Assembly (NCBI GenBank): GCA_902551695.1
Contig: CACDEI010000014.1
Location: 1 to 33,353, forward strand
Origin: an uncultured Pseudomonadota bacterium
Lineage (GTDB): Bacteria; Pseudomonadota; Gammaproteobacteria; Ga0077536
Direction: 5' to 3'
DNA: 33,353 nt
Part shown: one piece after another, positions 4,850 to 25,899 of the stretch
How positions within the stretch are numbered: position 1 is the stretch's first letter
Layout: the number at the start of each line of letters is the position of its first letter
Program-made: the position numbers and the translations under genes
Notes under the pieces: generated by a model
Databases searched by the model: none
What the model was told of the DNA's origin: nothing
Seen by the model: only the letters and a program-made list of their open reading frames with translations

Positions 4850-5620
4850 TTGAAACCCTACCAGGCAATAATATTCGACTTATTTAACACCTTAGTCCAT
4901 TGGAATCCTGAAAAAATCCCGACGTTTTTGTGGGGGGAAAAAGTATTAAAATCAACAAATCTAAAAACGTACAGAGAGCTCGGAGAGTACTGCAGGCTAT
5001 TTTCTTTCGAAAAATATCACAGAGCCTGTACAGAAGTCATAAGTGAAATAACAAAAAAAAAATCGGAAGAAAACATTGAAATTTCTTGTGTAGAGAGATT
5101 TAAAACCATCCTCTTACAACTTAACGTTTCTGAACCAGATACCTTGGGCCAATTGGCGACAAAGTTAGCCGCTTGTCACATGGAACTTTTAGCTAACGCA
5201 ACTACCGCTTCACAAACTCCAATTCAAGAAATAAAAAAGCTAAAAAACGGATACAAGCTAGGGCTTCTTTCAAACTTTGATGATGCGCAAACTGCCCGCA
5301 GAGTCTTGAAGGAAAAAAAACTAGGACCCTTCTTTTCTTCTATCATAATTTCTGACGAAGTTGGAATAAGAAAACCTGCCCCTGACATTTTTTCTGTCGC
5401 CCTTAACTCCCTGGAAATAGAGGCCAGAGAAACACTATTTGTGGGGGACTCTTGGGAGGAAGACATAGTAGGAGCAGCAAAGTTCGGCATGGACTCCGTT
5501 TGGATAAATCCAAACCGAACGAGTCCTGAAGAAAGAAGAATCAAACACCCTTTTAAGAAAAACATTTTTTGCATACCGTCTGTACAAAAGCTTTCCAAAC
5601 TAATAGAACAATTGACATAA
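4850..5620 (+). CDS. HAD-superfamily hydrolase (TTG start)
   Basis: AIIFDLFNTLVHW (motif I), GLLSNFDDA (motif II), KPAPDIFSVALNSLEIEARETLFVGDSWEEDIVGAAKFGM (motifs III/IV). Confidence 0.92.
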   Translation: MKPYQAIIFDLFNTLVHWNPEKIPTFLWGEKVLKSTNLKTYRELGEYCRLFSFEKYHRACTEVISEITKKKSEENIEISCVERFKTILLQLNVSEPDTLGQLATKLAACHMELLANATTASQTPIQEIKKLKNGYKLGLLSNFDDAQTARRVLKEKKLGPFFSSIIISDEVGIRKPAPDIFSVALNSLEIEARETLFVGDSWEEDIVGAAKFGMDSVWINPNRTSPEERRIKHPFKKNIFCIPSVQKLSKLIEQLT

Positions 5621-7504
5621 GTTTGGATATAAAACAATAGTGACAGCAAGGACAAAAATTATTAGTGCAAACGAAGATGAACCGATGAAAATATCCTTAA
5701 GAGAAATATGAGGGTCGTCCAGAGAGCCTTTTATGGTCAAAACGCTCAATCCCAAGGGTGGGGTTAGCAATCCAATCTCAACCCCCAACAGTGAGACAAT
5801 CCCAAACCAGATTAAGTCTCCATTCAAAGATATGACTGTCGGTAAGGCGAACGGAACCATTATCAACAGGATTGAGGTGGAATCGATAAGCATACCCAGG
5901 AAAATCAACAAGACTAAATAAATAAGAGTAAATTCTGTTAGAGTCAGGTCGACGGCTGCCACCAACAACCCGACATGTTGAGGAATACCTGAGAGCGTAA
6001 GCATCATTCCAAACATGGAAGCGCCTAATAGTAAAAATAAGATATTAGCTGATGTTTCAGTTGTCGCGCCCAATGAACAAGCAAAGTGTTTGATGTCCGT
6101 TCTTTTCAAAAAAATTGAGAATATAATCGCGATGGCGCTTCCAGTTGCGCCAGCCTCAGTGGGGGTGAAGATTCCAGTATAAATACCACCTAAAACCGCG
6201 AGTAAGATCATCAAAACTGCATAAAATCCCTTGAAAGCATTTTTTTCTGGCCTTTTGTTATCTTCTTTAACAACTGCATGTTGAATAAGTTTAAGATAAG
6301 ATAAGACTTGCACTTTTATGATCAACAAAATCACCAAGATTAGCCCAGGAATAACGGCAGCCAAAAACAGTTTATTTATAGAAACCTCAGCGATCACACC
6401 GTAGATGATTAATAAAATGCTCGGTGGAATCAGCATACCTAGAATAGAAGAGCCAGCAATAAGCCCTAAGGAAAAGCGCTTGGAATAACCCTCTTCCACC
6501 ATGTAGGGATAGGCGATTTTACTGAAAATCGCCGCGGAGGCTATCGAAATTCCGGTCATCGCTGCGAATAAGGCATTGGCCAGAACAACAGCTATCCCTA
6601 GTCCTCCCGACAATTTGAATGTCAGCCACCTTACCACACGCAAACTATCCCTGCCCATATTCGCGTCGCTAGTAATTAAACCTAAAAAAATAAACATCGG
6701 CACTGCTGAAAAAACATAATCGGACACCGACCCGCTGGCTATCATTCCCAAGGTATCAACAGCAACTCCAAAATCTTCCTTAATCAGCCAAATACTAATT
6801 AATGAAGACCCCAATAAAGACAAAGACATGGGGACACCCAAAAAAACTAAAAACAGGAGAAGAAATACGCCGGCAAGACCGAGAAAAATGTGGGCATTAA
6901 AAAGGCCAACCACAATTAACGCCGCAGACCAGAAAAAAAGCACTAAAAAAATCCCTATTAGCGGATTTTTTAACTCGCGAACTTTTACATAAGAATAGCG
7001 GACCACAACACAGGCGAATAAAAGACTGCCGAACGTCAGCCCTAGCTTGCTAGGCCAAATAGCCAGGACGAAATCTCCTGGGACTCCCAAAAATTCCCTA
7101 TCAGCAAAACTTTGTAAGAAATTACTCCCATTTGTCGCCGTAAACAAAAGAGCCAAGTTCACGGAGACTAATAAAAAACTCACCGTAGAAAAAATATCAA
7201 ACGCGGCAAACCTTTTACCTAATCCGCTAGCCACAGCACGCGAGGCTATCAAAGATTCACTCAACAAAAGCTTTGGCATCACTAAAAACACTACAGCGGG
7301 CAACATCAGAGAAATCAATTCTATTGAACCCAAAAAGGGTATTGAAAAGAGATTGCGCCCTAAAACATCTAAATTGACAATAAGTAACATAAACAATACC
7401 AAGGCGGAGGCCATATGAGACGATGCTACAGAAGTCTTTTCTATGCCTTTAGCCAAACGCGCCAATAAGTATTTTTTTTCTCTTCTCATAATGCCAGATC
7501 CCAT
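5600..7504 (-). CDS. TRAP transporter, fused small+large permease (DctQM)
   Basis: 634 aa, highly hydrophobic. N-terminal DctQ-like region, then DctM motifs (GVPMSLSLLGSSL, AVPMFIFLGLI, MTGISIASAAIFSKIAYPYMVEEGYSKRFSLGLIAGSSILGMLIPPSILLIIYG, IFTPTEAGATGS). Confidence 0.92.
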   Translation of the reverse strand: MGSGIMRREKKYLLARLAKGIEKTSVASSHMASALVLFMLLIVNLDVLGRNLFSIPFLGSIELISLMLPAVVFLVMPKLLLSESLIASRAVASGLGKRFAAFDIFSTVSFLLVSVNLALLFTATNGSNFLQSFADREFLGVPGDFVLAIWPSKLGLTFGSLLFACVVVRYSYVKVRELKNPLIGIFLVLFFWSAALIVVGLFNAHIFLGLAGVFLLLFLVFLGVPMSLSLLGSSLISIWLIKEDFGVAVDTLGMIASGSVSDYVFSAVPMFIFLGLITSDANMGRDSLRVVRWLTFKLSGGLGIAVVLANALFAAMTGISIASAAIFSKIAYPYMVEEGYSKRFSLGLIAGSSILGMLIPPSILLIIYGVIAEVSINKLFLAAVIPGLILVILLIIKVQVLSYLKLIQHAVVKEDNKRPEKNAFKGFYAVLMILLAVLGGIYTGIFTPTEAGATGSAIAIIFSIFLKRTDIKHFACSLGATTETSANILFLLLGASMFGMMLTLSGIPQHVGLLVAAVDLTLTEFTLIYLVLLIFLGMLIDSTSILLIMVPFALPTVISLNGDLIWFGIVSLLGVEIGLLTPPLGLSVLTIKGSLDDPHISLKDIFIGSSSFALIIFVLAVTIVLYPNLCQLFY

Positions 7505-8559
7505 ACTTTCTTCGGCTTCACATTTTCTTTCCTGAGACCATCCATCAGTTCTATCACTATCTTTCTTGCTGGAAGAGATTTCTCCTCATTTCTTAATACC
7601 CAATTTTTTCCGAGAGAAGTTGTCGCTTCTATCCATTTTTCTCTCTCAGCCAATGGCAACCCCGAGATTAAAGCTCCTTCTCTCTCTAAGTTAGATAGCG
7701 CTTTCTCAGCCATTTTAGTAGCCACTTGCGCACTGCGAATGGAGTAGTTTTTTGCCAACCTTCTGAGTTCAGTTTGCCAGTAGAGCGGCATTGCTTTCCA
7801 CCTATCCAAGTTGACCACGAGCGCCCCTACACTTTGTGCGCCCAATCCGACAAGTGTTAAGTATGGCGCCACCTCGTGTAGTCGGAAAGGATAAGCACCT
7901 GTCAAGATAGTTAGGGCGCCATCTGCTGCACCTGTTTTCATCTGCGTATAGTACGTGGTGAGAGCACCATTTACAGGGATGGCTCCTGAGCCGGTTAACC
8001 ATAACCTAGCAGCACCCGGGGCTAAAATTTTTTTACCTTTTAAATCAGAAAAATTTTTTACTGGGAATTTTGTAAGCAGATGATATGTGTCCACACCAGT
8101 TGCCCCCAAAAACTTTACATTATTCCTTTCCCATTCCTCTTGTATTTCAGGAATATTTTCATGTAACTCATTTACCACCTTGAGGAGCGAGATTAAGTCA
8201 TCGGTAATAAAAGGCAGGTTATACGTTATATTTGCTAACGGAAGCTTTGCAGACTCCCAAACTGACCCAACCCAGCCAATGTCCGAAAGACCGATTTTTA
8301 CTCCAGTCAGACTATCATGCCACTTATATAATGATCCCCAAGCCTTTGTCCAAGTGATTTTAGTTTGTGGATCTACAAGCTTAACTTTCTCCTCCAGCTG
8401 TGGAATAAATTCATCTCGTAACAAAGACACCCAAGGCAAACTTGGTGGGTGAGTGGTCGCTATTACAAAATGAATGTCTTGCGCTAAAACGGAATTTACG
8501 CCAGAAAAAAAACCGAGATGAAAAAGTGCAAATGCTACACATAGCCTCAGTTTAGACAA
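7486..8559 (-). CDS. TRAP transporter solute-binding protein (DctP family)
   Basis: Signal peptide, then FVIATTHPPSLPWVSLLRDEF...NFSDLKGKKILAPG...GALTTYYTQMKTGAADGALT; its 3' end overlaps the 5' end of the DctQM gene. Confidence 0.88.
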   Translation of the reverse strand: MSKLRLCVAFALFHLGFFSGVNSVLAQDIHFVIATTHPPSLPWVSLLRDEFIPQLEEKVKLVDPQTKITWTKAWGSLYKWHDSLTGVKIGLSDIGWVGSVWESAKLPLANITYNLPFITDDLISLLKVVNELHENIPEIQEEWERNNVKFLGATGVDTYHLLTKFPVKNFSDLKGKKILAPGAARLWLTGSGAIPVNGALTTYYTQMKTGAADGALTILTGAYPFRLHEVAPYLTLVGLGAQSVGALVVNLDRWKAMPLYWQTELRRLAKNYSIRSAQVATKMAEKALSNLEREGALISGLPLAEREKWIEATTSLGKNWVLRNEEKSLPARKIVIELMDGLRKENVKPKKVWDLAL

Positions 8560-9919: not shown

Positions 9920-10258
9920 ATGGGAGAAGTAGGAACAACCAAAGTCTATGAAAATGAAAAAATTATTGTGTGGGAGTTCACGTTGGAACCGGGAGAGGAA
10001 ACCCCGTTGCACGAACACAAACATGACTACATTTTTTACATTCAAAATGGTTCAAAATTACAAGTATTTGGAGAGGAAGGTAACGATCTGGGCACCTTAG
10101 ATGCCACGACTGGATCAGTATTCGCATTTAAAGTAGAGAATGGTTATCTAGTATCTACTGACGAAAAGAATCTCAGAGTTCCGGTGACTCATACTGCTAA
10201 AAATGTCGGCACCAGCAGCTACAAAGAAATCCTAGTTGAAACAAAAAACCGTATTTAA
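9920..10258 (+). CDS. Small cupin-fold protein
   Basis: VWEFTLEPGEETPLHEHKHDYIFYIQNGSKLQVF is cupin motif 1-like; strong RBS (GGGAGGA) upstream of the ATG. Confidence 0.8.
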   Translation: MGEVGTTKVYENEKIIVWEFTLEPGEETPLHEHKHDYIFYIQNGSKLQVFGEEGNDLGTLDATTGSVFAFKVENGYLVSTDEKNLRVPVTHTAKNVGTSSYKEILVETKNRI

Positions 10259-10278
10259 ATACCAAACGAGTTCAAAAG

Positions 10279-10713
10279 ATGTCTCCTAGTGATGATAAAT
10301 TGGTGTCTATAAGCCAAACAGTGGCACAAGCCCTATATGCAAGAGATATTGCCGCCCAGCGTTTAGGAATCAATATTGATTTTGTCGATGAAGGAGTCGC
10401 TGAACTTAGCATGACCGTAAAGGATTGGATGATTCAAGGGCATGACATTTGCCATGGAGGTTACATTTTCTTGCTAGCCGATACTGCCATGGCTTATGCG
10501 AGCAACAGTCGAAATAAGGCTAATTTAGCTATGAATGCTAATATAGATTTTCTACGACCTGCTAAATTAGGAGAAAATCTGACAGCCTCCGCCGTCGAGG
10601 GAAACAAGTCGAAGAACACCGGACTATATGACGTGAAGGTAACTAATGAAGCCAATATCTTGATCGGCCATTTCAGAGGAAGAACCTTTAACACTCAAGC
10701 CGAAGTGCTTTAA
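10279..10713 (+). CDS. paaI: PaaI-type hotdog-fold thioesterase (hydroxyphenylacetyl-CoA thioesterase-like)
   Basis: MIQGHDICHGGYIFLLADTAMAYASNSRNKANLAMNANIDFLRPAKLGENLTASA: HGG...aDtA signature. Confidence 0.88.
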   Translation: MSPSDDKLVSISQTVAQALYARDIAAQRLGINIDFVDEGVAELSMTVKDWMIQGHDICHGGYIFLLADTAMAYASNSRNKANLAMNANIDFLRPAKLGENLTASAVEGNKSKNTGLYDVKVTNEANILIGHFRGRTFNTQAEVL

Positions 10714-10944: not shown

Positions 10945-12000
10945 TTAAGATGAATTGAGCGCCCGCACCATTCTACGTATGCCCTCAGGATTTTTTTCAC
11001 TTATTGGAATACTGAATTCCACATTGGTTACTATACCGTTATACTTATCTTTTAACACCGACACGATATCTTCATGAAGTCCCACGCAAGCATATTCATT
11101 CAAGATATCATCATCTATAAGAGAGGGCATTTTTTCCCAATCGTTTTTCTTTGATAAAAACCTAAGCTTTTCAGCTATCTTGCCTAGCCCGTTAAACTCG
11201 AAAGTTTTCCGATAAGCCCATGTGGCTCCATAAAATGCGATTCTAGCACGTACATCCTCTTTATTTTTATCAAGTTCAAACCTATCAGCACCTGTCGCTA
11301 TCAGAGGTTTTATAGCCACACAAAAATGAGAATTCCCTCTGCATGATTTGTCTAACCCCCTTCTAATTTCTGGCCACATTACCTCCTTGATATATCTAGG
11401 GGTGCAAACTGGATGAGGTCTAACTCCTTCAGCCACCTCTCCAGCAACCATACTCATATATGGATTCACTGCCGCTAAGTGAATGGGTATGAAGGGGTAT
11501 TTGATGGGTCCTGGGTTGAATAGAGGATTTGTCATCGTAATTTTATAGATATCTCCAACCGCGCTCGGCTGCCGCCCCTCCTGCCAACTCGCCCATATTT
11601 CCCTCAGAGCTAGAACATATTCTCGCATCCAAGGGCCAGGCTTATTCCATTTTTGCCCATATCTCCTCTCAATATGACCTTTTACTTGAGTACCCAGACC
11701 AAGCACGAACCTACCAGACGACAAATGCTGAATATTCCATGAGGTTAAAGCAGTTACTGCTGGGCTACGTGGAAACGCTAGTGCTATCGCAGTCCCTATT
11801 TTTAAATTGTTTGTCGCAGCTGCAGCTAGCGCGCAAGCTATAAATGGATCTTGCTTTGTTTCTTCGAACATTAGAGCATCGTAACCTAGAGACTCGACCA
11901 GGGAGGCCTCTTCGCTAATGCATTTCAAATCGTAATCCAAGCGAGGTTTTCGCAAACCCGGATCAACTTTCCCTAGTGGAAGCAAAGTCTCTACCTTCAT
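10945..12000 (-). CDS. LLM-class flavin/F420-dependent oxidoreductase
   Basis: ESLGYDALMFEETKQDPFIACALAAAATNNLKIGTAIALAFPRSPAVTALTSWNIQHLSSGRFVLGLGTQVKGHIERRYG. Confidence 0.92.
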   Translation of the reverse strand: MKVETLLPLGKVDPGLRKPRLDYDLKCISEEASLVESLGYDALMFEETKQDPFIACALAAAATNNLKIGTAIALAFPRSPAVTALTSWNIQHLSSGRFVLGLGTQVKGHIERRYGQKWNKPGPWMREYVLALREIWASWQEGRQPSAVGDIYKITMTNPLFNPGPIKYPFIPIHLAAVNPYMSMVAGEVAEGVRPHPVCTPRYIKEVMWPEIRRGLDKSCRGNSHFCVAIKPLIATGADRFELDKNKEDVRARIAFYGATWAYRKTFEFNGLGKIAEKLRFLSKKNDWEKMPSLIDDDILNEYACVGLHEDIVSVLKDKYNGIVTNVEFSIPISEKNPEGIRRMVRALNSS

Positions 12001-12111: not shown

Positions 12112-13074
12112 ATGCGAATTTTACTATTAACTTTAATCTTTTATTTGACAATATTACCAGACCAGGCAGAGGCGGAAAGTGCTTTCACCATTTTGAGCAA
12201 TTGGAACCCAGAAAAGACCGAGTGGCAAACACTTAAGAGCTATGAAGAACTTCTAAGACAAAACCTTCCAAAGGATAAATTCTTAGTTTTTGGGCCAAGC
12301 ACAATACCTACAGAGCATCAGTTTAAGATGTCTACCCTCGGGATTTTTGACTTCCTTTTTACCCAAGCGCACTCAATACCTGATAAAGAAAAAGCAGCTT
12401 TTTTATTAGAAATTTGGCCTCATAGGCCGGCCGACCTAAGGAAGACTGCTTTTTGGCAGGCTCTTGAAGGACATTATAACAACAAAGGTTTAAAGATTTT
12501 ATCTGCTATTAACTCCGGCAATGGCTACCACTTATTACTAAGAAGCAAACCTAATTTTTGTAGTTTGGAAGGAGCAAAAATTTCAGTGCCGCCTCCTTTT
12601 GATGGTTTTGTTGAACAACTATCTGGGGTACCTATAAAAAGAAATAGAACGATCACACAAGAGGATCTAAAGAATGATGATCTAGAAGGATTTTTCGCCC
12701 CCATTCGGGAACATTCTTCCTTAAGTTGGTCGAAAAACGTGAGATTCCGAACCCAACCAATCGGAAATATAAATCATCTGATTTTTATAAATCTTACAAA
12801 ATGGAATAGCCTCAATGAAGATGATCAGCAGAAAATATATACCGCTAGCCTAGCATTAGAGAATAAAATTTACGCCTTGAGAAAAAGAAGGGCTGGTGGT
12901 TTTTTTGCCGATTTACAAAAAAAAAACATAGAAGCTATAGATTTTTGCGAAAGTCAAACTGGTTTACTTAATGAAGCATTTGCTAAGTCATTGCTAGAGC
13001 TTTCATCAGTCAGGCCATCTCTACTCACCGACCAACTTAAACAACTTATTCGGATTCCACACAGTAAACAGTAA
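12112..13074 (+). CDS. Orphan, divergent TRAP-type solute-binding protein (DctP-like)
   Basis: Signal peptide MRILLLTLIFYLTILPDQAEA. C-terminal NHLIFINLTKWNSLNEDDQQKIYTASLALENKIYALRKRR is characteristic of the DctP family. No adjacent permease. Confidence 0.7.
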   Translation: MRILLLTLIFYLTILPDQAEAESAFTILSNWNPEKTEWQTLKSYEELLRQNLPKDKFLVFGPSTIPTEHQFKMSTLGIFDFLFTQAHSIPDKEKAAFLLEIWPHRPADLRKTAFWQALEGHYNNKGLKILSAINSGNGYHLLLRSKPNFCSLEGAKISVPPPFDGFVEQLSGVPIKRNRTITQEDLKNDDLEGFFAPIREHSSLSWSKNVRFRTQPIGNINHLIFINLTKWNSLNEDDQQKIYTASLALENKIYALRKRRAGGFFADLQKKNIEAIDFCESQTGLLNEAFAKSLLELSSVRPSLLTDQLKQLIRIPHSKQ

Positions 13075-13103: not shown

Positions 13104-14423
13104 TTAGCCGTTTCTAGCATGCTCCTTGAGGCGCTGAGCCTCCAAAATTTGCTCCGGCGTTCCGTCCTTCACGATTTCTTCAAGTATAAGGCTCGCACTA
13201 GGCTGATATCCTAGTTCTATGTAGGCCCTCGCAAGGTTTAACTTAACGTCATTCTCGCCTCCATCAGTACTTACTGACTTTATAATGTCAGACACACTAT
13301 CTGTCTTTGCTGTATCAGATTTTGAAGGCAACGTTCCTTTCGAAAATCCCTCATCCTTACCTACCTCACCTCCATCCTCAGATAAATTTGTAAGGTCGTT
13401 CAACTTTTTTTGAGAGTCTTCATGGTTCAATTCATTTTCTAAATCCGCTAGTTCACTGATATCGCTACCATGTAAGGAAAAACTTTCAAAAGAATCGTCC
13501 TCATTTTCAAAATTCCAGTCGGCGAGCCCAGAACCGGTAAACTCTGTTTTGGCACCCGTATCGCCTTCAACTAATTCTTGGTCATTTGACCGAATAAACG
13601 ATTCATCCTCGAGAACATTCAGCAAATGCTTCCCACTTGCTTCCTCCCTCCAATTATTCTCAGGTACATGGCTCTCTACAGTTGGCTGAGTAAACCTCTC
13701 ATCTTTCCCAACACCCCATATTCTCATTAAGTTGAAAGAGTTTTCTATTTGTACTTGAAGTTCCTTAAGGAAACCTCTCCTGATCAGAACTAACTCTTCT
13801 GAGGGCTTTCGGAGCAAGCTAAAGGCCATTTCTCTCGCCCTATTTAGCAAATCCCTACCTTCTAATATTTCAGACACCACCCCAAACTGCTTTGCCTCTT
13901 TTACGGTCAAACTTTCTTCAGTTAATAAAAAATATCGAGCCTTATTTAGTCCAAATAAATTATGCAAGGCTAGCCGCCGACCTTCCCTATCAGATATCGA
14001 TTGGAAATACCCAGTTTGAGACTCTTGAAAAGAAACTCCCTCAGTAGCCAAGACAATATCTGACACTAAAGGAAGCTCGCAGTACTGCCTCACTGGACCA
14101 TTAATTGCTGAAATTACCGGAACTGGGATGCGGAGCAATAACTCTAAAAGTCCTTCAGTTCTCCAATCTGACGCTGGTTTAACTGAACCCTCTTCTTTTT
14201 CGGCATCTTCCCAAAATTTATCGCCAAACCCTGTAATCATCACCACTTTATTATGGGAATCGGTTGAAATGTCTTTGAAAAGGCTGGCGACCTGGGAGCG
14301 AGTGTTTGGGGTCCAAACCAAGGTTCCACCCACTCCAAAAGTCACTTCCAGTAAGCCACTATGTCTCTCCAATTGGATATCAGGGTAGAGTTTGGAGTAT
14401 TTCTCAAATTCGCCGTCCGCCAT
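13104..14423 (-). CDS. Chimeric protein: N-terminal crotonase (enoyl-CoA hydratase/isomerase-like) domain, acidic linker, C-terminal FimV-type domain
   Basis: One uninterrupted 439-aa ORF. N-terminus: KVVMITGFGDKFWEDAE...PVPVISAINGPVRQYCELPLVSDIVLATEGVSFQES...LFGLNKARYFLLTEESLTVKEAKQFGVVSEIL. C-terminus: VKLNLARAYIELGYQPSASLILEEIVKDGTPEQILEAQRLKEHARNG, which closely resembles the FimV C-terminal domain. Confidence 0.85.
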   Translation of the reverse strand: MADGEFEKYSKLYPDIQLERHSGLLEVTFGVGGTLVWTPNTRSQVASLFKDISTDSHNKVVMITGFGDKFWEDAEKEEGSVKPASDWRTEGLLELLLRIPVPVISAINGPVRQYCELPLVSDIVLATEGVSFQESQTGYFQSISDREGRRLALHNLFGLNKARYFLLTEESLTVKEAKQFGVVSEILEGRDLLNRAREMAFSLLRKPSEELVLIRRGFLKELQVQIENSFNLMRIWGVGKDERFTQPTVESHVPENNWREEASGKHLLNVLEDESFIRSNDQELVEGDTGAKTEFTGSGLADWNFENEDDSFESFSLHGSDISELADLENELNHEDSQKKLNDLTNLSEDGGEVGKDEGFSKGTLPSKSDTAKTDSVSDIIKSVSTDGGENDVKLNLARAYIELGYQPSASLILEEIVKDGTPEQILEAQRLKEHARNG

Positions 14424-14495
14424 CTGTTACCTCAAAAATATAAATATATTGCAGATTTAGTAATTCACTGGACCCAAGATCTATATAATTAATTT

Positions 14496-14567
14496 ATCAG
14501 AGTTTTTGTGTAAAATCAGAGTTTAAAAATAAAAACTAAGTTTTTGCTGCAATCTTTCACTAAGTTT
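14496..14567. promoter_or_regulatory. Repeat-rich upstream region of the SDR-sulfotransferase-CaiB operon
   Basis: Direct repeat ATCAGAGTTT at 14496-14505 and 14515-14524; perfect palindrome AAAAACTAAGTTTTT at 14531-14545; direct repeat ACTAAGTTT at 14535-14543 and 14559-14567. Confidence 0.35.
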
Positions 14568-14600
14568 AGAGCAAAGGTATATATCATATTGGAGGCACCC

Positions 14601-15368
14601 ATGGGTAAATTTAACGGTAAAGTTGTATTAATCACTGGAGCGACTGGAGGTATTGGCAAAGCTTCAGCAGAACTTTTCGTGAAAGAAGGTGCAAAGGTGA
14701 TTCTAACCGATTTAACTCAGGCCTCACTTGATGAATTGAGTTCTTCATTAGGTAAGGAGCACACCTTGGGCATCGCTGGTACAGTAACAGATAATAAGAC
14801 ATTCGAAAATGTTGTATTAAGGGGCGAGAAAGAATTTGGCAAAGTAGACGCTGTTTTTTTAAACGCTGGAATAGAAGGTCCTGTCCAGTTGATAACTGAC
14901 TACCCAGATGACGATTTCGACAAAGTAATGGCAGTGAATGTGCGTGGTGTTTTTTTGGGTCTTAAACACTCTATAGCGGCTTTGAAGCGAAATGGGGGTG
15001 GTAGTATTGTAATCACCTCCTCGCTAGGCGGTTTGAGAGGAATGCCCAAAATCTCTGCCTATATAGCGTCAAAGCATGCTGTCGTTGGACTGATGAAATC
15101 GGCAGCATTGGAAGTGGCGTCGTTTGGAATAAGAGTGAACACCATAAACCCCGCACCAATAGCGACTCGCATGATAGAAGCCTTAGAAAATGGTTTTTCC
15201 GGAGGAAGAGATAGCGATATCAAGCAACGCATGGAGAAATCCGTACCTCTACGCAGATATGGAACACCTGAGGAGGTAGCGAAGTTAGTTATGTTTTTGT
15301 GTAGTGATGAGTCCTCCTACATTACGGGAAATACTTATCCGATAGATGGAGGAAGCTCCGCAAAATGA
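14601..15368 (+). CDS. Short-chain dehydrogenase/reductase (SDR)
   Basis: VVLITGATGGIGKAS, FLNAGIEGP, YIASKHAVVGL, SSYITGNTYPIDGG. The ATG at 14601 follows GGAGG (14591), so I shorten the supplied ORF (14544). Confidence 0.95.
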   Translation: MGKFNGKVVLITGATGGIGKASAELFVKEGAKVILTDLTQASLDELSSSLGKEHTLGIAGTVTDNKTFENVVLRGEKEFGKVDAVFLNAGIEGPVQLITDYPDDDFDKVMAVNVRGVFLGLKHSIAALKRNGGGSIVITSSLGGLRGMPKISAYIASKHAVVGLMKSAALEVASFGIRVNTINPAPIATRMIEALENGFSGGRDSDIKQRMEKSVPLRRYGTPEEVAKLVMFLCSDESSYITGNTYPIDGGSSAK

Positions 15369-22555: not shown

Positions 22556-23461
22556 CTATATCTGGTGTAAAGTCGACGGAGTATATGCTGTCAGACTGTG
22601 ATCACAGACTATATTCACTAGCCAGTCGCCAAAATCTTCCGTAATACGTAGCAAATCGACGACGTTATGATCGCTAATTCCGTAATTGAAAGTAGTTCTA
22701 AATACTTTGGAATAAAATATTGGATGACCCAAGAAACAAGGGAACTCCCTCAGGTTTCTATAAATGGTCAAAATTTCGGTTCTGTCTTCCAAGAGATTTG
22801 GTATCACCACCACCGTAGGAAGAAATTTAATTTTTCCGCCATTTATCAGAGGGTTCGCATCATAAAGGCGACTCAAGAATTTCTTTGTCGCTCCGAGGTC
22901 AGCATCTGAAGCAGAAGTAGGGACAAAAAGATAATCGGTATCCAGCATAAAAGAATACTCTGTTGGTGTTGTGCCGGCTGGGGTATCAAAGAAAACGAAT
23001 CTCTTTTCATTTTCTGACTTGAGTTGAAAACCAGATTTCAGATGTTGATAGATCCTGGCGTTATTTACACCACCCGACGCCAACAGAAACTCAGGGTCTG
23101 AAACGAGCTTAAACTTTTTGTTCGCAAATCGGTGCAAAGATTCACTGGTGGTTCCTTGTCGATCCAAATCGATAAACTCTATGAGAAAATCGGGCTTTTT
23201 TAGGGCCAATTTTAGGCAAGACACAAATGCCACAGTGCTCTTCCCGACCCCACCTTTAGAATTGGCGAAAACTATAGTGGTTGCTTCATCTGGAGATTTG
23301 GCCGGTTTCGTAGGGATATCTCGCCTAGGATTCTTGGACGACTCTATGCCCTCTTCTTCCAAATCGGGGGGTACAAGAGCACTTTCGGCAGGTTGCGAGA
23401 CTCTCTCCTCTCTCTTCTCCCCATTTTGCTTACCAAACTGTTTAAGGAACCTATCTAACAC
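22556..23461 (-). CDS. ParA/MinD-superfamily ATPase with N-terminal extension
   Basis: TTIVFANSKGGVGKSTVAFVSCL (deviant Walker A KGGVGKST), FIDLDRQGTTSESL (Walker A' region), FVFFDTPAG (Walker B). About 60-residue charged/proline-rich N-terminal extension. Confidence 0.93.
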   Translation of the reverse strand: MLDRFLKQFGKQNGEKREERVSQPAESALVPPDLEEEGIESSKNPRRDIPTKPAKSPDEATTIVFANSKGGVGKSTVAFVSCLKLALKKPDFLIEFIDLDRQGTTSESLHRFANKKFKLVSDPEFLLASGGVNNARIYQHLKSGFQLKSENEKRFVFFDTPAGTTPTEYSFMLDTDYLFVPTSASDADLGATKKFLSRLYDANPLINGGKIKFLPTVVVIPNLLEDRTEILTIYRNLREFPCFLGHPIFYSKVFRTTFNYGISDHNVVDLLRITEDFGDWLVNIVCDHSLTAYTPSTLHQI

Positions 23462-23995: not shown

Positions 23996-24166
23996 TTAGC
24001 TGTGATATTGTGCTTTTAAGGACAATACTTTCATACCATTATACACAAAAAACATTTTATCGAACCTTTCTTTGGTGTTGATAGCAATATTCAGCTGAGA
24101 CTTCCCACTTTCTACCCATATTTTAGCTAATTTTACCGATTTAGTTTCCGGGAACTGAAAATTCAC
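23996..24166 (-). CDS. 56-aa small ORF (GTG start) overlapping the phaC stop codon; not in the supplied ORF track
   Basis: Manual translation: (M/V)NFQFPETKSVKLAKIWVESGKSQLNIAINTKERFDKMFFVYNGMKVLSLKAQYHS*. Its GTG start shares GTGA with the phaC TGA stop. Fills the gap between phaC and the bactofilin. Confidence 0.5.
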   Translation of the reverse strand: MNFQFPETKSVKLAKIWVESGKSQLNIAINTKERFDKMFFVYNGMKVLSLKAQYHS

Positions 24167-25899
24167 TTTACCATTACATAGCTCCCTGGCGAAGGCTCAA
24201 TGGCAGAAGTATTCTGCAATTTAGCCATTGTTTTTTTTCCGCTTCTGGACTGCATCCATTCCAACCAGGTCAACCACCAACTGTAATCATGGATTTCGGT
24301 ATTATTTTTTTCAACCACTTTGTTATCCCCATCTTGCCCTAAAACTCGATGAGAATAGGCTTTATCTCCAGGCGGATTCACAACTCCAGCAACGTGCCCT
24401 CCTTCTGTCAAAATAAAATGCTTTGGGCCATTAAACAAATTAGCACCTTGTAACGTTGAGCGCCAGGGAGCAATATGATCTTCGACAGCGGACACGAAGC
24501 AAACAGGTGTAGTAACTATCCCTAAATCGATCTTTTCATTACGAATCACTAGGCGTCCGGGCCTGGCCAATAAATTGTTTATATACATATTTTTGAGATA
24601 AGACTTGTGCATTTTCGCTGGGAGCCTAGTGGTATCGGCATTCCAAAATAAGATATCAAAGGGAGCTGGATCCTTCCCAAGCAAGTAGTTGTTGATATAA
24701 AAGTGCCACACTAAGTCTCTAGCTCTCAATAAATTAAAAACAAAGGCCATATCCTCTCCGGACAAGAAACCTCTATCGTCCAACCTCTTTTCGATTACGT
24801 TTATGTTTCTCTCATTAACGAAGACCCCTAAATCGCCAGGCTCGTTAAAATCTAACATAGTGGTCAAGAAAGTCGCTCCGGAAACGCGATTATCATTCTT
24901 AGAGGCCATATACCCTAACATAGCGCCGAGCAGAGTACCCCCAATGCAATAGCCTAAAGCATTCAAACGTCCGGTCTCTGATTCAGAAGCAACTATGTTC
25001 ACAGCCTCTAAAAAACCTTCCGTCCCATAATCATCAAAGTCTATCTCGGCCAAATCTTGCTTTGGATTGACCCACGAAATCACATAAACTGTGAGGCCAT
25101 TACTCACTGCCCATTTGACAAAAGAATTTTCAGGCTTCAGATCAAGAATGTAGTATTTATTTATCCAGGGCGGAATGATGAGCAAAGGTATCTCGTTGAC
25201 TTCCGACGTGGATGGCGCGTATCTAATGAGCTGCATTAATCGATTCTGGAAAATTACACTACCCTTAGAAACAGCAATGTCGACACCTACTGCAAAAGCA
25301 CTCTCCTTCACCATTCTTAATTTCAAGTTCCCTTTGAGGGGATCCCAGTCAGATAAAAAATTAATAGCTCCACGAATTAAGTTTTCCCCACCAGTTTCTA
25401 AAGTCATCTTTAAAACTTCTGGGTTGGTGATTAGAAAGTTAGCTGGCGAAAATATTTCCAAATATCTTGCCATATAGAATTCCACTTTTTGTTTCAGAGG
25501 TTCCCTCAAGCCATCCATTTCGCTAACAGACCCCAATACATTCTCTTCCAGCCGCAAATAAGTATCTTTTAATTCCTTAAATAGAGGGTTTTCATCCCAT
25601 TGACCGGACCTAAACCGTTTATCCTTCTTTTGAGTCTCCGAAGTTGCATCACCTGCTTCTCTTGCATAAGAGGCAGATTCTCTCCCCAACCAAATGCTCT
25701 CCAAGATTGAATGTTGGATGTTAAAAAAATGCGACGGCTTCTCCGCTAATAGACTAAAAAAATCGAAATATGTGTCTATTATCCCTAGCACATCCTCATC
25801 AGACGTTCCGGAAAAAAATCCAATTCTTTCATTGCGGGAACCAAGCTCTCCTTCTGGGGACACCGGGTCACTCGCTTCTAGATTCTTTCTATTTTCCAT
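24163..25899 (-). CDS. phaC: Class I poly(3-hydroxyalkanoate) synthase
   Basis: PLLIIPPWINKYYILDLKPENSFVKWAVSNGLTVYVISWVNP, ALGYCIGGTLLGAMLGYMA (lipase-like box with catalytic Cys), SAVEDHIAPWRS, LTEGGHVAGVVNPPG. Confidence 0.95.
   Translation of the reverse strand: MENRKNLEASDPVSPEGELGSRNERIGFFSGTSDEDVLGIIDTYFDFFSLLAEKPSHFFNIQHSILESIWLGRESASYAREAGDATSETQKKDKRFRSGQWDENPLFKELKDTYLRLEENVLGSVSEMDGLREPLKQKVEFYMARYLEIFSPANFLITNPEVLKMTLETGGENLIRGAINFLSDWDPLKGNLKLRMVKESAFAVGVDIAVSKGSVIFQNRLMQLIRYAPSTSEVNEIPLLIIPPWINKYYILDLKPENSFVKWAVSNGLTVYVISWVNPKQDLAEIDFDDYGTEGFLEAVNIVASESETGRLNALGYCIGGTLLGAMLGYMASKNDNRVSGATFLTTMLDFNEPGDLGVFVNERNINVIEKRLDDRGFLSGEDMAFVFNLLRARDLVWHFYINNYLLGKDPAPFDILFWNADTTRLPAKMHKSYLKNMYINNLLARPGRLVIRNEKIDLGIVTTPVCFVSAVEDHIAPWRSTLQGANLFNGPKHFILTEGGHVAGVVNPPGDKAYSHRVLGQDGDNKVVEKNNTEIHDYSWWLTWLEWMQSRSGKKTMAKLQNTSAIEPSPGSYVMVK

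Follow-up and report, generated by a model that had tools for sequence, protein, structure and literature searches.

A probable pseudoenzyme crotonase bearing a FimV-type C-terminal domain in a genus whose FimV proteins lack that domain

FimV and HubP are the main organizers of the cell pole in the bacterial class considered here, and one may ask to what their conserved C-terminal domain has to be joined: does it need an anchor at the pole, or only a carrier? A fusion gene in the window, by which we mean the entire 33,353-nucleotide stretch of DNA analyzed here, makes these alternatives testable. As a sequence-only reading had proposed, it is one uninterrupted reading frame of 439 residues; ORF analysis places it on the minus strand, which that reading had left unspecified, the plus strand of the same interval being full of stops, and a GAGGT-type ribosome-binding-site-like sequence lies immediately 5' of its ATG. 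Its parts are as follows, with OCH standing for 6-oxocamphor hydrolase.

13104..14423, minus strand: crotonase-linker-FimV C-terminal domain fusion gene, 439 aa, stop included in the coordinates; orthologue at L027:6001-7320, 91% identical; dN/dS 0.17
13701..14423, minus strand: OCH-type crotonase domain, residues 1-241 (~5-241); equivalents of His45, His122, His145 and Asp154 lost
13266..13700, minus strand: acidic, probably disordered linker, residues 242-386, pI 4.21
13107..13265, minus strand: FimV C-terminal (TPR-like) domain, residues 387-439; TIGR03504 match at 394-433; three helices in the model
14424..14440, minus strand: ribosome-binding-site-like sequence TGAGGTAACAG, directly upstream of the fusion ATG

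Each of the three parts can be identified with some precision. Residues 41-224 match the Pfam family ECH_1 at 56.8 bits (cut-off 27), and the top PDB match of the first ~225 residues in a phmmer search is OCH itself (1o8u, E = 2.8e-38), in agreement with the earlier placement of this domain nearest to the OCH branch of the crotonases. The acidic linker of about 150 residues that had been described before C-terminal to it spans residues 242-386, with 24% Asp plus Glu. At the other end, residues 394-433 match the NCBIfam model TIGR03504 (FimV_Cterm) with a score of 40.1 bits (curated cut-off 30.65), well clear of the insignificant match that the sequence-only reading had allowed for, and the last 68 residues match the structures of the Pseudomonas aeruginosa FimV C-terminus (4mal/4mbq, E = 2.2e-5), such that the assignment to a FimV-type domain holds. 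In an AlphaFold model, built from an alignment of two sequences only and poor overall (mean pLDDT 43), this domain is the sole confident part, forming three helices at a pLDDT of ~80, the linker is almost structureless and the crotonase part is too uncertain to be read. The other hallmarks of FimV are missing: FimV_core (TIGR03505) and FimV_N (PF25800) are absent from the Pfam results and from the best 25 of 54 NCBIfam families, and the protein shows neither a signal peptide nor a membrane helix, its maximum 19-residue hydropathy being 1.39 as against 2.38 in the FimV encoded by the same genome (G000). With no core and no anchor, the fusion is thus not a FimV. A derivation of the linker from FimV was also considered and dropped, as no sequence similarity between the two is detectable and only their acidity is alike.

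The genome that contains the window, from a bacterium whose genome is small, is a fragmented assembly, 72% complete, and the sequence-only reading had itself raised the prospect of two separate genes joined by an assembly error; a decaying gene remnant is a related option. Against both, an independent assembly from a second species (G002; contig CACJXQ010000002.1, isolate AG-453-E14, locus L027) encodes a full-length orthologue of the same 439 residues, with 91% identity and with flanking genes and gene order equal to those of the window on both sides, which rules out a chimera. When the two genes are compared by codon, dN/dS is 0.16 in the crotonase part and 0.26 in the linker, and it falls to 0 in the FimV domain, where nine changes are synonymous and none is nonsynonymous (neutral P ~1e-6). 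Purifying selection acts on all three parts of the fusion, and its strength, together with the lack of stops, rules out a decaying remnant. Because the gene is present in an independent second species and its dN/dS is low, the chance that it is either an assembly error or a gene in decay is negligible. Its distribution is narrow: at E <= 1e-20 we found no other crotonase-FimV_C fusion among 36 genomes from the order or 369 sampled from the class, one scan of 85,462 species genomes, seeded with a pattern, returned AG-453-E14 as the only close relative, and a literature search retrieved no paper naming both FimV and crotonase. The earlier statement that no such fusion was known hence agrees with our searches, in which none turned up beyond the window genome and AG-453-E14.

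What, then, has become of the enzyme? Across 25 stand-alone homologues there are 72 near-invariant columns, of which the fusion keeps 46, and it still has Trp40 and a large part of the crotonase core. It has lost every near-invariant histidine (positions 32, 45, 122, 145 and 157) as well as Asp154. Four of these residues, His45, His122, His145 and Asp154, which we take to be the catalytic ones in OCH, are replaced in both species with the fusion and retained by the stand-alone homologues. Tyr114 and Glu147 of the fusion occupy the positions of His122 and Asp154, position 122 having been anchored by the His/Ala difference between the PDB chains 1o8u and 1szo, and around Asp154 the PGDG of the homologues has become SDREG, with the glycine and proline gone. 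The sequence-only reading had suspected altered or lost catalysis from the presence of VRQYCE in place of a GGG motif. The suspicion of loss is likely correct, but the yardstick was not, for OCH-type crotonases carry PVTNHPE-type motifs at this site rather than GGG, and the telling change is therefore that of His122 to Tyr; the histidine of the HFPSG motif is absent from the fusion, as that reading had also said. Loss of the catalytic residues is well supported by these alignments, and the domain is probably a pseudoenzyme; with these residues missing, the fusion is unlikely to be a functional OCH. One could still imagine an active enzyme that performs a new chemistry through different residues and is positioned by the FimV domain at the pole or at a pilus machine. 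The purifying selection seen in the low dN/dS of the crotonase part (0.16) would fit this, and Tyr114 and Glu147 could in principle support other chemistry; however, the five near-invariant histidines and the aspartate of the OCH site went together, along with the Gly/Pro surroundings of the latter, and we consider such an enzyme quite improbable. Given the missing catalytic residues, the better of the two options initially offered for the fusion is the recruitment of an enzyme-derived domain to a scaffold role, rather than the tethering of a crotonase that is still active.

In the crotonase tree the fusion forms a very long branch of uncertain placement, as expected of a relaxed, re-purposed domain, and the origin of the locus was therefore judged by gene order. 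The relevant neighbors are:

14544..15368, plus strand: short-chain dehydrogenase (SDR), divergent neighbor of the fusion; its apparent orthologue is likewise divergent beside the stand-alone OCH in G004
9920..10713, plus strand: cupin and thioesterase pair, serving as synteny markers; the same pair adjoins the stand-alone OCH in G004
10945-12000, minus strand: luciferase-like monooxygenase, one of two genes that separate the fusion from the synteny block; not between thioesterase and OCH in G004
12112-13074, plus strand: DctP-like orphan, the second of these two separating genes; not between thioesterase and OCH in G004

In G004, a genome of a related genus (g3; locus L133), the order is cupin (+), thioesterase (+), an intact stand-alone OCH-like crotonase (-) and SDR (+). 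That of the window is cupin (+), thioesterase (+), luciferase-like monooxygenase (-), DctP-like gene (+), fusion (-) and dehydrogenase (+). These orders match except for the two intervening genes, and the fusion therefore occupies the place of the stand-alone OCH in the same orientation. The DctP-like orphan, convergent with the fusion, matches TRAP_S1 at only 19.7 bits, where the curated cut-off is 50; it evolves at a similar rate (dN/dS 0.17) and, among eight related genomes searched, has a match in G002 only. It is distinct from a complete TRAP transporter at 5600-8559 (-), with a fused DctQM (634 aa) and a DctP (357 aa). Elsewhere in the window, a ParA/MipZ-like ATPase with a weak ParA match adjoins a PHA synthase, PhaC (22556-23461 and 24163-25899, both on the minus strand), a pairing possibly concerned with the partitioning of storage granules.

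The surroundings of the fusion also bear on the idea that it is a ligand-controlled adaptor, in which the dead pocket would bind a small molecule, such as a cyclic diketone or terpenoid or an acyl-CoA, and thereby switch the FimV domain, linking metabolism to pili or polarity. Its neighbors include catabolic genes (the luciferase-like monooxygenase, the SDR, a CoA-transferase and the thioesterase), and the crotonase fold is under selection despite the lost catalytic residues, with Trp40 and much of the core retained. Set against this, the adjoining genes are separately oriented and form no obvious operon with the fusion, and a purely structural carrier accounts for the same conservation; we therefore regard ligand control as unlikely, if worth bearing in mind.

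The other half of the question concerns the source of the FimV domain. In all three genomes of the genus (g1), fimV sits between asd and truA (G000, L075; G001, L076; G002, L077) and encodes a protein with FimV_core (81-83 bits) and FimV_N above cut-off, a membrane helix and an acidic tail. In none of the three does this protein have a FimV_Cterm, ending instead directly before truA. The fusion does not lie at this locus, which is taken up by the separate, shortened fimV, the only FimV_core match in G000; conversely, the only FimV_Cterm above cut-off in G000 and G002 is that of the fusion, and no genome of the genus has more than one. The third member, G001 (90% complete), shows no fusion and no FimV_Cterm at all, the domain having been lost, never present or dispensable there, or lying in the missing part of the genome. 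Elsewhere the domain is widespread. In the same family it is found above cut-off in 22 other genomes as well as in three mini-FimVs of genus g3, being carried in most genera on FimVs of 1000-1300 residues and retained in g3 on proteins of 224-236 residues; in the class it is present in 308 of 370 genomes, and the matches listed are mostly frames of 550-1300 residues. Three candidates for further losses (G019, G031 and G033) were set aside, as their FimV frames end at contig ends. In g3 (G029, G004 and G032; L050, L051, L052 and L078:1731-2405) the mini-FimV at asd-truA consists of membrane helices and FimV_C with no FimV_core, and the genomes of that genus that were tested have no PilB/PilT-type ATPase above cut-off; here the mini-FimV landmark has been kept without a pilus.

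The FimV domain of the fusion is up to 58% identical to those of FimVs from the same family, with which it shares a KLNLA-AYIELG signature, and about 40-50% identical to those of other families; the alignment covers only ~45 residues, so its family origin is a matter of similarity rather than of a resolved tree. Because the FimV of the genus lacks the domain and the copy in the fusion is nearest to same-family FimVs, the most economical history, and one that the sequence comparisons support well, is that the docking domain left fimV in an ancestor of these species and came to be attached to the end of the crotonase gene. A less connected history would have FimV lose its domain by itself and the OCH gene separately acquire its FimV_C, either from another organism or from an additional fimV copy; the fusion would then not complement FimV. 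G001 has a FimV without the domain and no fusion, and loss from FimV is therefore tolerated; third-position GC is 0.53 in the FimV part of the fusion gene and 0.36-0.41 in the rest, although the former spans only 53 codons; and deletion of the FimV domain hardly affects swimming in Pseudomonas putida and Shewanella putrefaciens (PMC12918733). What speaks against coincidence is that the fusion domain most resembles those of same-family FimVs, that the genomes of the genus hold at most one FimV_Cterm above cut-off each and that the domain has no nonsynonymous changes. On this balance we think two unrelated events rather unlikely.

Several observations place the fusion in the context of type IV pili and of FimV clients. 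The window genome encodes PilB (763.8 bits, cut-off 675.65), a PilC-like protein and three PilT/PilU-family ATPases. The genes for the last are in tandem (L139:300-3601, minus strand; 351, 388 and 344 aa), and three such matches are clustered also in G001, G002 and G010. FliM/FliN were found only in G001 and G010 among nine genomes searched. The FimV domain has been described as a major hub for clients (PMC12918733): that of Shewanella binds PdeB via the GGDEF domain of the latter (PMC9061725), and in Acinetobacter baylyi a truncated FimV that resembles the P. aeruginosa FimV C-terminus recruits FimL/PilG and lines up type IV pili (PMC9596432).

Accordingly, we favor, at a probability of roughly 0.55, the reading that a catalytically dead crotonase carries the client-docking domain of FimV as a soluble adaptor in a cell with type IV pilus ATPases. 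FimV, still encoded at asd-fimV-truA, would have lost its C-terminal domain, which the end of the crotonase gene now carries; the crotonase has lost its catalytic residues, yet its sequence stays under purifying selection. The OCH-type crotonase fold is oligomeric, and here it might serve as a soluble, probably multivalent or oligomeric carrier whose flexible acidic tether would present FimV domains to partners, such as FimL/PilG-like pilus regulators, that FimV would normally keep at the membrane. This function, the clients and the cellular location of the fusion are inferred. The fusion may also contact the truncated FimV, restoring a split landmark in trans. More tentatively, then, the landmark might be divided between two genes, one for a FimV anchored to membrane or peptidoglycan and without its client domain and the other for a soluble, oligomeric pseudo-crotonase that organizes pilus or polarity partners in trans. 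Counting against the adaptor are the presence of the fusion in two genomes only, G001, with neither fusion nor FimV_Cterm, the poor structure model, the dissimilarity in sequence of linker and FimV, and the shortness of the FimV domain alignment.

Both domains are known, and it is their combination, along with a FimV that has no such domain, that is new within the reach of our searches. The docking domain has apparently moved from a membrane landmark to a soluble, enzyme-derived protein and differs by not one amino acid between the two species; the locus is traceable and clearly exemplifies the conversion of a crotonase into a probable pseudoenzyme adaptor. Compared with FimV/HubP (TIGR03504, TIGR03505, PF25800), the fusion shares the C-terminal FimV domain that follows a long acidic low-complexity stretch, but lacks FimV_N, FimV_core/LysM, the signal peptide and the membrane helix, the crotonase replacing the anchor half. 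With the OCH/beta-diketone hydrolase crotonases (1o8u, 1szo, 2j5g) it has in common a full-length homologous fold, Trp40 and the locus that a stand-alone OCH occupies in a related genus, and it departs from them in lacking the equivalents of His45, His122, His145 and Asp154 and in having ~200 additional C-terminal residues. The truncated FimV of A. baylyi (PMC9596432) and the mini-FimVs of g3 likewise indicate that FimV is separable and that its C-terminal part can work without the periplasmic half; in these the domain stays on a membrane protein, whereas the fusion is a soluble protein of enzymatic ancestry encoded elsewhere. Finally, a parallel in logic is seen in SpmX of Caulobacter and Asticcacaulis (PMC4460556), which differs in fold and in class of organism, is membrane-anchored and has no FimV domain: there, too, a polar organizer is made up of an enzyme-type domain, a muramidase, coupled to a long unstructured region.
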